Shown here: piece after piece, positions 4,144 to 10,880 of the stretch
Layout: every line of letters begins with the position of its first letter
Position numbering within the stretch: the first letter of the stretch is position 1
Source: a candidate division WOR-1 bacterium RIFOXYB2_FULL_45_9
GTDB lineage: Bacteria > Margulisbacteria > WOR-1 > O2-12-FULL-45-9 > XYB2-FULL-48-7
DNA: 64,000 nt
Assembly: GCA_001771575.1 (NCBI GenBank)
Contig: MEUD01000001.1
Span: 1,241,277 to 1,305,276 of the forward strand
Direction of reading: 5' to 3'
The notes under the pieces: generated by a model
Seen by the model: the letters and a program-made list of their open reading frames with translations, nothing else
Databases searched by the model: none
Told to the model about the DNA's origin: nothing
Translations under genes and position numbers: made by a program

Positions 4144-6873
4144 CTACTCTTCGATAAAAGCCTGCGCGGAGATGGTTTTGCCGCCGCCGGCGTAGTCTTC
4201 CCAAATAACGATAAAATAATCGTCCAGGCCAACGACTTGCGGGGCGCGGGCGCCGTTATTGGTCTTGATCAAAAGGCTGCTGGCCGGCCAAAGCGGCCTG
4301 CCGTCAAGACCAATTTTTTGCATATAGATCTCGTAGTGTTTGCCGTTACGGTAATCTTCCCAGGTGATGATGGCCGCATTGCCGGAGAGAGAAATGGATC
4401 GCGGCGCGAACTGGGTCAGGGGAGCTTCGATCACGGGAATCCCTTCTTCCCCCCAGAGGAGCTTGCCGGCATCGGACAAGGCGTTGGTGAAGATGTCCCA
4501 GTTGCCAAAACGATAATCTTGCCAGACGACCATTGTCCCCTCGTTTAGCCTGGTTAGCAATGGGTCGTGCTGGGAACGGGCCATCTGACAGACCGGGATG
4601 CCGTCGTTTAACCAGAGAGGATAGCCTAGCTTGTTAAGCCGTTGGGCGTAGATGTCGTAACTCCCTCCCGCTTTGTCCGTCCAGGCGACGATCGCCCCTC
4701 CCTCTCCGTCACCGGACAATTTGGGGGACTGCTGGATGTCGGGAGCTCCACAAACAAGCATGCCATTCTCTTTCCAGAGTCGGACCCCGCTCGCTTTAAG
4801 ACGCTGGGCGTAAATGTCGAGGTTGCGATCTCCCCTGCGGGCATCGGCCCAGGCAATGATCGTGCCGCCATTTTCGTCAACAATAGCGGAGGGGGCAAGC
4901 TGATCCCCGTTTTCGGCGGCAACCAGGGCGGCGTTCTTTCCCCAAAGCAATTCGCCGTCCGCGGCGATCCGTTGAGCGTAAATATCTTTTAAATTTAACG
5001 GGTCTCTTTCGTCTTCCCAGGCCGCGATTGCCCCCCCGTTATTATCGGGGACCAGAACAGGGGCTCTTTGCTCGGAGCCGAGTTTGGTCAAACTTAGGCC
5101 GGATACACCCCATAATAGCCGACCGGAGGTCGAGATCCGTTGAGCGAAAAGGCGAACGTTTTTACCGTCGCGCCTATCTTCCCAAACAATGATCGCCCCC
5201 CCCTGGCCGTCCGCGACGAGTTGTGGAGTGGTTTGCTCGGCGGAGAACCTGGCGACACGCACCCCTTCTTTTCCCCAGGCCAGGTAGCCGGATCTCGTTA
5301 GTTTTTGAGCGTAAATGTTTAAAAATCCGTGACGCCCGTCTTCCCAAACAATGATCAACTCATTGCTGCCATTGTTGATCGCGGCGCCATTTTGATGGAC
5401 TACCGCTCCTGGAGTGTCGCAGACGACCTGCCCATTTCTTCCCAGGGTCAATGCTCCGCCGCCGGATATTTCTTGTCGAGCAACATCAAAGTTTCCGTTG
5501 ACCCGACTTTGAAAAGTAATAAAAATGGTGTTATCTCCCGAGACCGCCAAGTTTAGTTTTCCCTGGTCATCTCCCAATCCGGAGACTAACAACCCCTCGT
5601 CAGCCCATAACTGCCGACCGGCGCTGTTGATCTTCTGCGCGAAAAGGCGGGATTTCCCCTTGCGGTAATCTTCCCAGACCACCACCCAATCAACAGTCGA
5701 TAAATAAGCGATCTTTGGTTTGTCCTGTCGAAAAGGAGCCGGCGCGACCTCGATCCCTCCCTTTTTCCAAAGGAGAGAGCCTTCCCTGTTGATCCTTTGC
5801 GCGAAAATGGTGCTTTGTTCGTGGCGGTTGTCGGCCCAAACAACGACCGCCCCTCCATCGGGAGCGAGCGCCAGGTCGGGAGATTCCTGGGAAAAAGGAT
5901 CGTCGGTGATTTGCAGGTCGGCCTTGTCCCAGAGAGGAGCGCCGGAGAGATTATATTTTTGAACAAAGATATTTTTACTGTTGCCGCGCAAATCGCTCCA
6001 GGCCAAAATAAAAAACTTATTACCGGCGGTAAGGACCGGGTTCTCTTGATTGTCGGGAGCGGAGCACAGCGCCAGACCGTTTTTTCCCCATAGTCCTTCG
6101 CCATCTGAAGAAAGATATTGTCCGTACACGTCACTGCCGTTGTTTTGCGGCCGCCCGTCGGTCCAGACGACAATAAAACCGTTGGCTCCGTCGGACGCGA
6201 CCTGGGGGTACCACTGGGTCCCGCCCTCGTCGCAAAGGACGATCCCGTTGCCAAGCCATTGAGTCCGACCAACCCGGTCCACCTTTTGGGCATAAATATC
6301 TTCGCCGACGCAGCTGCGATAATCATGCCAAACGATTAGGAGCTCTCCCTTTTTGCTTATTGCGACCTCCGGAGCGAACTGGCCGTAAGATGAGACGCAG
6401 ACAGGGAGAGCTTCTTTGCCCCAAAGAGGGAGCCCTCCTGCGGTAATATGTTGGGCGAAGATGTCGGAATTGTTGTTGCGGTAATCTTGCCAGGCGACCA
6501 GCAGGCCTCCTCCTCCGTCGCAAATCACCCGGGCCGAGTTCTGGTTCCCTTCGCCGTCACTGATCTTTACGCCATCTCTTCCCCAGAGCGGCGTTCCCGC
6601 CGGGTCGTATTTTTGGGCGAAAAGCCTGCTGAAGCCGGAGCGTCCGTCTTCCCAAACAAGATAATAACTTCCGTCCCCCCCCAGGCAGGAGACCGGATTT
6701 TGCTGGGTCGTATTTCCCGAAGAATTGTTGACCCGTAGGCCGCCGCCGTCCCATTGCGCTTGAGGCAAGGTGGCAGGCAAGATTGGGGGGAGATCTTTTT
6801 CCTGGGACCTGGAAACGGCGATTGCGCCAAAGAAGATGACCAGGGAAAAAAGTACGAGCGCCGAACGTTTCAT
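4144..6873 (-). CDS. Secreted protein with 16 tandem propeller-like repeats
   Basis: A 909-residue exported protein with no assigned function. A signal peptide (about 1-23: charged start, LVLFSLVIFFGAIAV core) is followed by about 16 repeats of roughly 53 residues. Each repeat has a VWxDxR turn, a (D/N)I(Y/F)AQ(K/R) strand and a GxxLWGxxG motif. Repeat 8 is degenerate (FITFQSRVNG). Short Trp-containing blades of this kind suggest beta-propellers, for example two of eight blades, on the cell surface or in the periplasm. No membrane anchor or sorting signal is seen. Its ATG overlaps the smc stop, so the two are co-translated, an odd pairing. The repeats are divergent enough in DNA to be stable. 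Confidence 0.8.
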   Translation of the reverse strand: MKRSALVLFSLVIFFGAIAVSRSQEKDLPPILPATLPQAQWDGGGLRVNNSSGNTTQQNPVSCLGGDGSYYLVWEDGRSGFSRLFAQKYDPAGTPLWGRDGVKISDGEGNQNSARVICDGGGGLLVAWQDYRNNNSDIFAQHITAGGLPLWGKEALPVCVSSYGQFAPEVAISKKGELLIVWHDYRSCVGEDIYAQKVDRVGRTQWLGNGIVLCDEGGTQWYPQVASDGANGFIVVWTDGRPQNNGSDVYGQYLSSDGEGLWGKNGLALCSAPDNQENPVLTAGNKFFILAWSDLRGNSKNIFVQKYNLSGAPLWDKADLQITDDPFSQESPDLALAPDGGAVVVWADNRHEQSTIFAQRINREGSLLWKKGGIEVAPAPFRQDKPKIAYLSTVDWVVVWEDYRKGKSRLFAQKINSAGRQLWADEGLLVSGLGDDQGKLNLAVSGDNTIFITFQSRVNGNFDVARQEISGGGALTLGRNGQVVCDTPGAVVHQNGAAINNGSNELIIVWEDGRHGFLNIYAQKLTRSGYLAWGKEGVRVARFSAEQTTPQLVADGQGGAIIVWEDRRDGKNVRLFAQRISTSGRLLWGVSGLSLTKLGSEQRAPVLVPDNNGGAIAAWEDERDPLNLKDIYAQRIAADGELLWGKNAALVAAENGDQLAPSAIVDENGGTIIAWADARRGDRNLDIYAQRLKASGVRLWKENGMLVCGAPDIQQSPKLSGDGEGGAIVAWTDKAGGSYDIYAQRLNKLGYPLWLNDGIPVCQMARSQHDPLLTRLNEGTMVVWQDYRFGNWDIFTNALSDAGKLLWGEEGIPVIEAPLTQFAPRSISLSGNAAIITWEDYRNGKHYEIYMQKIGLDGRPLWPASSLLIKTNNGARAPQVVGLDDYFIVIWEDYAGGGKTISAQAFIEE

Positions 6874-9080
6874 GCCGGGACTTGAGCGAGCTTCATTGAG
6901 ATCACTTTTGAGGTGCCGGGGTCCTGCATCGTCACGCCGTAAATATTGTCGGCGATCGCCATGGTCCGTTTGTTGTGGGTAATAACGATCACCTGGGTAT
7001 TGGCGGAAAAGTCCTTTAAAATGTTCGTATATCGACCGATGTTGGCTTCGTCCAGAGCGGCGTCGACCTCGTCAAGAAAACAAAACGGGGAGGGTCGGAT
7101 CTTGAGCAGGGAAAAGAGAATGGCGACGGCGCAGAGAGATCGCTCGCCGCCGGATAATAGCGGGAGCGGCAACCAGCGCCGGCCATTTGGGCGGACCGAG
7201 ATCTCGATCTCCGCTTCCAGGGCCGGCTGGCCGGGGGCCAGAGAGATCCGCGCTTCCCCGCCGTTAAAAAGTTGGCCGAAAACTTCGGAAAAAATGACCG
7301 AAAGTTGGTCCATGGTCTGCAGAAAAGTTGTTTCGGCCTGGGCGTCGAGCTCAACGATCAGGTTGCGCAGGTTCTCCCGTGCGGCGTTAAGATCGGTCAG
7401 TTGAGCTTCAATGAAAGTTAGGCGCTCCTTGCTCCGGTCAAATTCCTCGATCGCTAGGAGATTGACCGGTTCAAGCTGGCGCAACCTGGCTTTTCCCTCT
7501 TCGATCTCGCTTTTGGCCTTGCCAGTATTAGCTACGATGCCGGAGACAGTTTCCAGATCTTGCAGTGAAAGATTGTATTCGGCCAAAAGCTTTTCGCCGA
7601 TCGCCAGCATTTCCCCATCGACTTTGGCCAGAGAGACTTCAAGAGAGGCGATGATGCTTGCCGCCTCCCTTTCCTCCTGTTCTTCCTGACGGCTTTTTTC
7701 TTCAAATTCGGAGATCTGTGTGTTTGTCTTTTCCCGCTCAAGCTTCAATTGAGCGATCGCTTCGGTCAAAGAGGCCTTTCTTTGATCGTCAGGAATGGAA
7801 ACGGCTAAAAGATCCTGGCGATGAGCGCCGATCAAGGCGTTAAGTCTCTCCATCTCAGCCAGGGCCTTGCGGTTTTCTTCGTTTAAAAGTTCCAGTTTAA
7901 GGTTGCGGGTCGCTTCCGCTTCGCTGGCGGCCAGGGAAAGGTTCTCTTCTTTGCCGAAAAACTGCATAATGGAAGAGAGCAATGAGACCAGGCCGCGGGT
8001 TTGATCGACCAGAAGGTGGAGCGACTCGTCAAGATGGACCTGCGAAGGGTCGCTAATTTCCGGAGCCTGCAAAGCCAGGATCTTCGCGGCGAGAGCGTTG
8101 GTTTTTGCCGAGACGGAGAGAAGGAGCTCTTCTTCTCTTTGCAGGTCCTTTTCTATGAAGCGGCGATTGAGTTCGGCGTCGCGCAACCGGTCTTTTTCGC
8201 TGTCGAGTTGAGCGGCCAGATCGTCGATCTGTGATTCGATCTCCCGGAGCCGTTTTTTGAGTTCCGCTGCCGCGCTGAAATCTTTTTCTTCGGCGGCGCT
8301 TTTGGCCTGGGACTGTTGTCTTGCTTGGGCCAGCGCCTCTTCGAGCTTCTGCTTTTTTTCCAGAATGCTTCCTAAAAGTTTTTTGCTCAAGCCGATCTCC
8401 AGTTCCTTGACCTTGTTATGGATTTCCAGGTATTCTTTTGCCCGACGGGCTTGCTCCTCAAGAATGATCAGGTGTTCGCTGACCTCGATCTTAAGGTCGT
8501 TGATCCGGAGAAGGTTTTGTTCGGCGGCGATCAGCTTTTTCTCCGCGGCGACCTTTCTGGTTTTGTATTTGTTGATCCCGGCCGCCTCTTCAAAAACGAT
8601 CCGGCGCTCTTCTCCTTTACTGGAAAGGATGGCGTCGACCTGCCCCTGGGTGATGATCGCGTAAGTCCCTTCGCCGAGGCCGGTATCCAGCAGAAGGTCG
8701 CGGATATCCTTGAGCCGGCATTGGTTTTTGTTGATGTAGAATTCACTTTCCCCCTCGCGGAAGGTCCGGCGTTTGATCGCGACCTCGGTGAAGGGGACCG
8801 GAAGACGTCCCGAAGAATTATCGAAAGTCATGGTCACTTCAGCCAGTGAAAGCGGTTTGCGCTGGGCGGTCCCGGCGAAAATAATGTTGTCCAGGGAACC
8901 GACCCGTAGCATTCTGGGATTATCTTCCCCCAGCACCCAGCGAACCGCGTCCAGCACGTTGCTTTTGCCGCAGCCGTTTGGCCCAACGATCCCGGTGATC
9001 CTGGAATCAGGATCAAACTCGATGTCGGTCTGGTCGGGAAAAGTCTTGAAGCCGCGTAGCGACAAGGTCTTTAAAAACAT
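6870..9080 (-). CDS. smc: Short SMC-family ATPase lacking the hinge domain
   Basis: SMC proteins are ATPases that organise chromosomes. This one has only 736 residues against about 1150-1200 usually. The head halves are clearly SMC: GPNGCGKSN (Walker A, about 34-42), ITQGQVDAIL (Q-loop region) and FEEAAGINKYK at the N-terminus; LLSGGERSL (signature) and CFLDEVDAALDEAN (Walker B, D-loop) at the C-terminus. Between them are two coiled-coil stretches (about 165-325 and 400-600) joined by a non-coil linker (APEISDPS to SIMQFFGKEEN). No hinge motif is found. A TGC-TATAGT box sits 9 bases before the ATG. No ScpA/ScpB is in the window. Confidence 0.92.
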   Translation of the reverse strand: MFLKTLSLRGFKTFPDQTDIEFDPDSRITGIVGPNGCGKSNVLDAVRWVLGEDNPRMLRVGSLDNIIFAGTAQRKPLSLAEVTMTFDNSSGRLPVPFTEVAIKRRTFREGESEFYINKNQCRLKDIRDLLLDTGLGEGTYAIITQGQVDAILSSKGEERRIVFEEAAGINKYKTRKVAAEKKLIAAEQNLLRINDLKIEVSEHLIILEEQARRAKEYLEIHNKVKELEIGLSKKLLGSILEKKQKLEEALAQARQQSQAKSAAEEKDFSAAAELKKRLREIESQIDDLAAQLDSEKDRLRDAELNRRFIEKDLQREEELLLSVSAKTNALAAKILALQAPEISDPSQVHLDESLHLLVDQTRGLVSLLSSIMQFFGKEENLSLAASEAEATRNLKLELLNEENRKALAEMERLNALIGAHRQDLLAVSIPDDQRKASLTEAIAQLKLEREKTNTQISEFEEKSRQEEQEEREAASIIASLEVSLAKVDGEMLAIGEKLLAEYNLSLQDLETVSGIVANTGKAKSEIEEGKARLRQLEPVNLLAIEEFDRSKERLTFIEAQLTDLNAARENLRNLIVELDAQAETTFLQTMDQLSVIFSEVFGQLFNGGEARISLAPGQPALEAEIEISVRPNGRRWLPLPLLSGGERSLCAVAILFSLLKIRPSPFCFLDEVDAALDEANIGRYTNILKDFSANTQVIVITHNKRTMAIADNIYGVTMQDPGTSKVISMKLAQVPA

Positions 9081-9110: not shown

Positions 9111-9164
9111 TTGAGCAACCAGTGGATGAATGATACAATTTGAGCCGTGGATCTATACTATAAT
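9111..9164 (+). promoter_or_regulatory. Promoter region of the PorV-like/SLH operon
   Basis: Two -10 candidates are seen. TTGAGC (9111-9116) is followed after 17 bases by TACAAT (9134-9139). A perfect TATAAT lies at 9159-9164, 12 bases before the ATG at 9177. The second matches the leaderless spacing seen elsewhere. Either promoter argues against the GTG at 9147 as the start codon. Confidence 0.5.
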
Positions 9165-9176
9165 AGGCAAAACAAG

Positions 9177-10880
9177 ATGATAATTTCGAAGTGCCGCCGC
9201 TTGCTTTCGCTTGTTTTTCTCCTTTCATTATTAGTTTTCCCAGCTCAAGCCAGATTAAACGAATTAGGGATCAATCCGTTCGCCACTGAAGCCGGAGGCC
9301 GTCCCTTGGGGATGGCTGGTGCGGTCGTCGCGCTGACCGATGACCCGAACGGGGCGCTGTATAATCCGGCCGCTCTGGCCTGGGCCAAAGGGATCGCGAT
9401 CACCAATCTGGACATTGACCGGATCACCGTTGCCGGTGCTTATCCGACCGGTCTGGGTTCCTCCTTCGGTCTTGCCGTGGTCAACACCAGCATCGAAAAT
9501 TTGGTTTATCAGGGTTCCCTGCGGACGTCGAAGAGCAGTTTGGTCGTTGTTTCTTACGGGACAAAACTTTTCTTTTTTCCAGCGTATGAAAAGAACCAGG
9601 CACTGCAAAGGATCGGGCTTGGCGTTAGCGTCAAAACGCTCCTTTCGGAAACTTTTAGGGGAACGGGAATTAACGATCGTTCGGCAAACGGCTGGACCGT
9701 TGACCTTGGCGGAATTTATAAAGCGAACGACTGGCTGTCGGTCGGGCTGGCTCTGCAAAACGTCCTTCCGGAAAAAACATTCGGCGGAGGCTCGATCTTG
9801 TGGGACGACAGCCTCGCGGAACCGATCACTGCTTATCACAAGCTTGGTTTTTCCGCGAAGGTCATTGGCCCTCTTGGCTCGCTTAATTATAGCGACACCA
9901 GGCAGTTGGTGCTGGGGGGGGAGCTTGACTTCGCAAGCGCTAATCCGACCCTGTTGCGGATAGGCGGCGAGTACACGGTAAACAAGCACTTTTTTATGCA
10001 AGCCGGCTTAATGGAGCAGTGGCGGCCCGGCGGCCTTTCGTTTACTCCGACCTGGGGATTTGGTTTGCGTTCGGAAGAGTGGGCTTTTACCATTTCCGGG
10101 AACCGCGAACCGATCAAAGATGAGGGGCAGGTCCTTTTGTCCGGCATGTATTTTCCAAAGGAGTGGGTGGTTTTCAAGAAGCTTGATCTGGACCGGCCCT
10201 CGGTCTTTTTAGAAACGGCGATCGAACAGCTTTCGCTTGAAGACAATTTTGTGACTTATGATGAAACGCTTGAGGTGACCGGCAAGGTCAAGCCGGGTGT
10301 AGACGTATATGTCAACAATTACCTGGCAAGCAAAGGGAAGGATAACTCCTTCCGGGTCCTGGTGCCGCTGAACCTTGGAAAGAATCTGGTGATCGTCGAG
10401 GCCCGGAACGAACAGGAAAAAGTTTCCTGGACTTATAAGGTGCTGCGGAAGGCCAGGATATCGGTCGAGGAAGAGACGGAACTTAAGAAAAAACTGGAGA
10501 GAACGATCTCTCTGCAAGAGCAGGAAGCCCTCCGGAAAAAAGAGGCCGAGCTTAAAAAACGGCGGAGCAAAGTGGAAGAGCTGGTTACTATCGGGGTCAT
10601 TAATGTTGATGAAGGCAAGGGGGAGTTTAGGCTCGAAGCGACGATCACCAGAGGAGAGCTGGCTACCTGGCTGGTGAAATCTTCGGACCTGCCGCTTCCG
10701 GAAGTGACCAAAGATGTCTGTGTTGATATCAAGAGGAGCAACCCTCTGGCCGCGTATTATAAGGCGGCGATCGACTGGAACCTGATGCCCCTTTATTCGG
10801 ACGGGACCTTCCGGCCGGACACGCCGGTAACCAAAGAAGAGTCGGAGCGCTTATTTAAGGTCTTGGGTGTGAAGAAATGA
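9177..10880 (+). CDS. Outer-membrane PorV/UPF0164-like barrel with C-terminal SLH region
   Basis: A 567-residue exported protein. A signal peptide ending near FPAQA is followed by an AGGRPLGMAGAVVALTDDPNGALYNPAAL segment, the hallmark of PorV/UPF0164-like outer-membrane barrels. Alternating beta strands continue to about residue 330. Then come an Ig-like domain (FVTYDETLEVTGKVKPG), a charged coiled-coil stretch, and an SLH-type region with TITRGELATWLVK and YSDGTFRPDTPVTKEE. SLH domains bind peptidoglycan-linked polymers, so the protein may tether the outer membrane to the wall. The ATG at 9177 is chosen because it gives a cleaner signal peptide and lies beyond the TATAAT. It overlaps the next gene by 4 bases. 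Confidence 0.82.
   Translation: MIISKCRRLLSLVFLLSLLVFPAQARLNELGINPFATEAGGRPLGMAGAVVALTDDPNGALYNPAALAWAKGIAITNLDIDRITVAGAYPTGLGSSFGLAVVNTSIENLVYQGSLRTSKSSLVVVSYGTKLFFFPAYEKNQALQRIGLGVSVKTLLSETFRGTGINDRSANGWTVDLGGIYKANDWLSVGLALQNVLPEKTFGGGSILWDDSLAEPITAYHKLGFSAKVIGPLGSLNYSDTRQLVLGGELDFASANPTLLRIGGEYTVNKHFFMQAGLMEQWRPGGLSFTPTWGFGLRSEEWAFTISGNREPIKDEGQVLLSGMYFPKEWVVFKKLDLDRPSVFLETAIEQLSLEDNFVTYDETLEVTGKVKPGVDVYVNNYLASKGKDNSFRVLVPLNLGKNLVIVEARNEQEKVSWTYKVLRKARISVEEETELKKKLERTISLQEQEALRKKEAELKKRRSKVEELVTIGVINVDEGKGEFRLEATITRGELATWLVKSSDLPLPEVTKDVCVDIKRSNPLAAYYKAAIDWNLMPLYSDGTFRPDTPVTKEESERLFKVLGVKK

Follow-up and report, generated by a model that had tools for sequence, protein, structure and literature searches.

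The hinge, which normally joins the two halves of the ring-forming SMC motor, is regarded as essential to SMC complexes and as one of the features that define them. An Smc protein that has none lets one ask, in a case supplied by nature, whether SMC function requires it. The window analyzed here, 64,000 nucleotides of contig MEUD01000001.1 from the candidate division WOR-1 bacterium RIFOXYB2_FULL_45_9, raises this question with a single gene on its minus strand (6870..9080), in which a sequence-only reading had recognized two bacterial SMC ATPase head halves, short arms and no hinge. Is this protein a genuine chromosomal Smc that has lost its hinge, and how could it then work?

The reading frame (6870..9080, minus strand) starts with ATG, contains no internal stop and encodes 736 amino acids, as had been described. 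The bacterial identity of both head halves is borne out by a Pfam SMC_N match covering residues 2-724 and by a score of 701 bits (cut-off 567) against TIGR02168 (SMC_prok_B), the NCBIfam model for the chromosome segregation protein SMC. The N-terminal half of the head (residues 1-165, 8586..9080, minus strand), supported by the SMC_N match, carries the Walker A motif GPNGCGKS (8961-8984) and the R-loop residue Arg59; K39, R59 and Q145 are invariant among 28 homologues. The C-terminal half (6873..7325, minus strand) carries the signature motif LLSGGERSL (7134-7160) and the Walker B motif FLDEVDAALDEAN (7041-7079), both on the minus strand, with S643, G644, G645, D670, E671 and H702 invariant in the same 28 homologues. 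Among solved structures, a profile search finds bacterial Smc heads and, for the coiled coil and joint, the fragment 5nmo as the closest relatives, and the top Foldseek matches to the model of the protein are Smc heads with arms, the first being Pyrococcus 5xei. RecN, Rad50/SbcC and ASRP/coalescin also combine an SMC-like ATPase with a coiled coil and have no Smc hinge, but they are distinct head families: the window Smc scores 61.8 bits against the RecN model TIGR00634 (cut-off 407.85), 51 bits against the Rad50 model (cut-off 847) and 41 bits against the ASRP model (cut-off 300). The MukB/MksB head model (PF04310) matched only 2 of the 28 members, with a best E-value of 0.12.

A Pfam search at E ≤ 10 found no SMC_hinge in the window Smc, and PF06470 has no match anywhere in the genome, a single 1.67-Mb contig of 98% completeness; hence no hinge fragment is encoded elsewhere, which extends to the whole genome the earlier statement that none lies nearby. 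In full-length homologues the hinge lies at residues 500-679 and spans about 150-180 residues. A custom HMM built from 10 full-length Smc proteins recovers the hinge in all 10 (257-299 bits) and finds nothing significant in the 28 hinge-less Smc proteins, the linker that the sequence-only reading had named as the place where a diverged hinge might hide included. Its best match, 4.8 bits in the longest member (L048), falls on the joint/neck and not on the tip, and the model of that protein is a plain hairpin, so we rejected a remnant hinge there. A zinc hook of the Rad50/SbcC type at the arm tip is ruled out, as none of the 28 proteins contains a CxxC motif, and no known dimerisation module was detected in them. 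The genome encodes no second, full-length Smc; the next SMC_N match (L003) is an SMC-like AAA ATPase.

The short form is fixed across the uncultured class Ca. Saganbacteria, under which NCBI files candidate division WOR-1. Hinge-less Smc is found in 30 of its 31 genomes, the exception being a 69% complete genome, and SMC_hinge is found in none of the 31. The roughly 30 carriers span nine families and are independent assemblies, including MEUC01000002.1 (L011, same order), which rules out a lone deletion or an assembly error. Two same-genus Smc copies that share 91% identity give a dN/dS of 0.046 over their whole length and of 0.088 for the tip; judged by these ratios, the hinge-less Smc, tip included, is under purifying selection. 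With a form that is fixed in the class, conserved and the sole Smc of its genome, the claim that the gene is not simply broken stands.

A sister family in the same phylum (f10) has the hinge in 8 of 8 genomes, with complete Smc proteins of 1190-1193 aa, and the only matches from a contig search were relatives in Saganbacteria/Margulisbacteria and hinged Smc proteins of Clostridia. In a head-region tree compared only with the Smc proteins of the sister family and of Clostridia (outgroup), all 28 hinge-less proteins form one clade (support 100/97). The 905-, 844- and 826-aa forms (the last cut by a contig end) branch deepest and the 716-779-aa forms are nested. As the longer-armed members branch deepest, this topology suggests a single loss of the hinge, in the class ancestor, with the arms shortened later. 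Most members of the phylum outside the class and the sister family are without both hinge and ScpAB: in about 34 genomes hinge and ScpA are both missing, so that the whole Smc-ScpAB system seems to have been lost in them, while RecN is mostly kept. One further genome of the phylum (G053, family f19, 97% complete) encodes ScpA and ScpB, while Smc and hinge were not found in it, its best SMC_N match being RecN.

An AlphaFold2 monomer model of the window Smc (28-sequence alignment, mean pLDDT 76) orders the protein as head, N-terminal arm helix (170-338), disordered segment (339-351), helix (352-374), disordered segment (375-385), C-terminal arm from residue 386, joint and head. The linker that had been placed at about residues 325-400 thus does replace the hinge, within refined limits. 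The N-terminal coiled-coil arm (residues 170-338, 8067..8573, minus strand) is about 169 residues long, where that of the sister family has about 335. The C-terminal arm (7326..7922, minus strand) includes a conserved head-proximal joint segment at about residues 486-580, where PDB 5nmo, a fragment of the B. subtilis Smc coiled coil, aligns with profile positions 485-572 and the motif EPVNLLAIEEF is conserved. The window Smc therefore has the long antiparallel coiled-coil arms and joint of an Smc (AlphaFold2, 5nmo) at about half the usual length, in agreement with the short arms first noticed: the strands measure about 170-200 residues vs about 335-375 in the sister family, corresponding to an estimated 25 nm vs 50 nm at 0.15 nm per residue. 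We also considered the quantised arm lengths described for Smc (modes 163/238/341; PMC5344682), but the lengths estimated here (about 175-260 residues) do not fit them cleanly and we make no claim of quantisation.

In place of the hinge the window Smc has a tip region (residues 339-386, 7923..8066, minus strand), negative with both Pfam and the custom HMM, in which low-confidence linkers flank one helix (pLDDT about 40-60 at the tip). This conserved amphipathic tip helix (residues 353-376, 7953..8024, minus strand) is a candidate dimerisation element. It has 9 conserved hydrophobic columns in a heptad-like pattern, where any of 161 distal-arm windows of equal length has at most 6; L354, V358, L368 and I371 are conserved hydrophobic positions of the tip; its mean hydrophobicity and hydrophobic moment exceed those of every arm window, and it ends in a Gly(-Lys) motif. 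Among the 25 shorter members, pairwise identity falls from 0.65-0.71 in heads and neck through 0.28-0.35 in the distal arms to 0.20 in the tip helix. For these shorter forms the helix is the best candidate for a replacement dimeriser. L048 (905 aa), the member that branches deepest, is predicted by AlphaFold2 to be a plain hairpin with a 6-residue turn (426-431) and no tip helix, so dimerisation through a tip helix cannot be universal in the clade.

The partners of a chromosomal Smc are retained. The window's genome encodes scpA and scpB in the order trpS-scpA-scpB-dprA, and parA-parB after rsmG. It also contains two perfect parS sites (TGTTTCACGTGAAACA), which lie 2.7 kb from each other, so that only the hinge is missing from an otherwise complete Smc-ScpAB/ParABS set. 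Among the class genomes ScpA is found in 27 of 31 and ScpB in 26 of 31, and each class member listed at 90% completeness or above has both. The sequence-only reading had considered that a normal-length smc with scpAB might exist elsewhere in the genome: both ScpA and ScpB are indeed encoded, yet alongside the hinge-less copy, and no normal-length smc was found.

We consider it probable that the hinge-less protein, the sole Smc of its genome, is the chromosomal Smc and acts with ScpAB in a smaller ring that is closed through the tip; in this reading it is an orthologue of bacterial Smc that lost its hinge once and then about half of its arms. The window Smc would be the ATPase of an Smc-ScpAB condensin, loaded by ParB at parS via the retained joint. 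ScpA would bridge the two heads, ScpB would cap the kleisin, and ATP-driven head engagement would move or entrap DNA. In the shorter forms two protomers would meet at their arm tips via the amphipathic helix 353-376, and the resulting ring would be smaller, its arms measuring about 25 nm rather than about 50 nm. Assembly with ScpAB, loading by ParB, dimerisation at the tips and the entrapment or extrusion of DNA are inferred. Tip dimerisation in the shorter forms is favoured on two grounds: a conserved, hydrophobic helix calls for a partner when the coiled-coil end that bears it is otherwise free, and in B. subtilis a dimeriser of foreign origin works, a Rad50 zinc hook being able to substitute for the Smc hinge (PMC5344682). 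Against it, the identity of the tip helix is only 0.20, and co-occurrence with ScpAB as read from genomes is no proof of binding. The earlier suggestion that such an Smc must trap DNA in some other manner outruns the evidence: heads, joint and ScpAB are kept, and the tip helix may replace the hinge.

Alternatively, the distal ends may not dimerise at all, leaving an open clamp in which the Smc pair is joined only at the heads, by ScpA/ScpB and ATP-dependent engagement, with the arms weakly or not associated and DNA held inside the head-kleisin compartments. The plain hairpin predicted for L048, the failure to detect any known dimerisation module and the fact that the conserved parts are head, joint and kleisin partners all point this way, and the models make such a clamp possible above all for L048. 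The shorter forms, however, retain under selection an amphipathic tip helix that an open end would not need, and as an account of the window protein we find this arrangement rather doubtful. If it were true, a closed SMC-kleisin ring formed via the hinge would not be required for bacterial chromosome organisation. A hinge supplied in trans, or diverged past recognition inside the linker, is very improbable. There is a helical element at the tip and profile methods can miss extreme divergence, but the hinge of the full-length relatives takes up about 150-180 residues, while the tip offers about 48, most of which form one helix, and no hinge match was found in the window's genome or in any of the 31 class genomes.

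A change of function has to be weighed as well, in which the hinge-less Smc took over a repair role like that of RecN, itself SMC-like and without an Smc hinge. RecN is found in none of the 31 class genomes, whereas 41 of the 43 genomes from the rest of the phylum have it; the two in which it was missed are 55% and 71% complete. Loss of the hinge and loss of RecN map to one branch and so amount to a single coincidence, not independent evidence; the absence of RecN is a lead and not evidence of a functional link to the hinge-less Smc. ScpAB, ParB and parS are kept, which argues for a chromosomal role, and the window Smc is far from the RecN model (62 bits vs a cut-off of 408), making the shift unlikely. 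There is next to no chance that the gene is decaying, or that it reflects an in-frame deletion in one strain or an assembly artefact: beyond its unusual length nothing in favor of this was found, and the roughly 30 genomes of nine families, with MEUC01000002.1 among the independent assemblies, the dN/dS of 0.046 and the invariant catalytic residues stand against it. A compact, tip-closed Smc-ScpAB ring remains the reading that we prefer.

Compared with the canonical Smc of the B. subtilis type (TIGR02168), the Saganbacteria form shares the head halves, their motifs, the neck, the joint and the single copy, as well as a genome that encodes ScpA, ScpB, ParB and parS; it differs in having no hinge, arms of about half length and a tip that is a helix or a plain turn. 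In 2025 marine Actinomycetes were reported to have an Smc without a hinge, described as lacking CxxC, as branching near the base of actinobacterial Smc and as having no normal Smc beside it in the screened genomes (PMC12153180). By description the two forms share the Smc head clade, the coiled-coil hairpin and the lack of hinge, CxxC and second Smc; they belong to different phyla, and, in the tree with Clostridia as its only outgroup, the Saganbacteria heads group beside the hinged Smc of their own phylum. The main text of that report contains neither of the terms ScpA and kleisin and does not describe a tip element (PMC12153180). As it gave no partner analysis, the Saganbacteria provide a second, better-documented hinge-less case. 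The open-access literature, with subscription papers and preprints outside the scope of the search, returned no report from Saganbacteria or Margulisbacteria.

Engineered B. subtilis Smc proteins, in which a Rad50 zinc hook takes the place of the hinge or the arms are truncated (Mini-Smc), demonstrate a replaceable hinge fold and workable short arms, although many shortened arms failed and only certain lengths work (PMC5344682); these are artificial and use a zinc hook, of which the Saganbacteria form has none. The hinge has been proposed as a gate for obstacle bypass, and complexes without the gate tend to have longer arms, maybe in compensation (PMC12647877). MukBEF, Wadjet II/III and Acetobacter Smc share the loss of hinge passage with the Saganbacteria form, but they keep a dimerising hinge and tend to longer arms, the opposite of what is seen here (PMC12647877). 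With hinge lost, arms halved and ScpAB kept, as are ParB and parS in the window's genome, the Saganbacteria Smc offers a natural compact condensin for finding out how much of the ring is required to load, to translocate and to bypass obstacles, and being one protein of only 736 aa it should ease structural work.

The gene that follows smc on the minus strand (4144..6873) encodes a secreted repeat protein of 909 aa without a Pfam match, and its start lies inside the smc stop (4-nt overlap). This synteny is conserved: the gene adjoins smc across nearly the entire class, and no copy was seen next to the hinged smc genes of the sister family. The divergent neighbor on the other side (9147-10880, plus strand) has a weak S-layer homology match, and parts of it recur upstream of smc in several relatives. 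The SMC-like protein L003 (G000:C1:746578-749844), about 606 aa long, is an SMC/RecF-like AAA ATPase that carries CPVC in mid-arm; it is encoded beside a helicase-like gene and may belong to a defence system.
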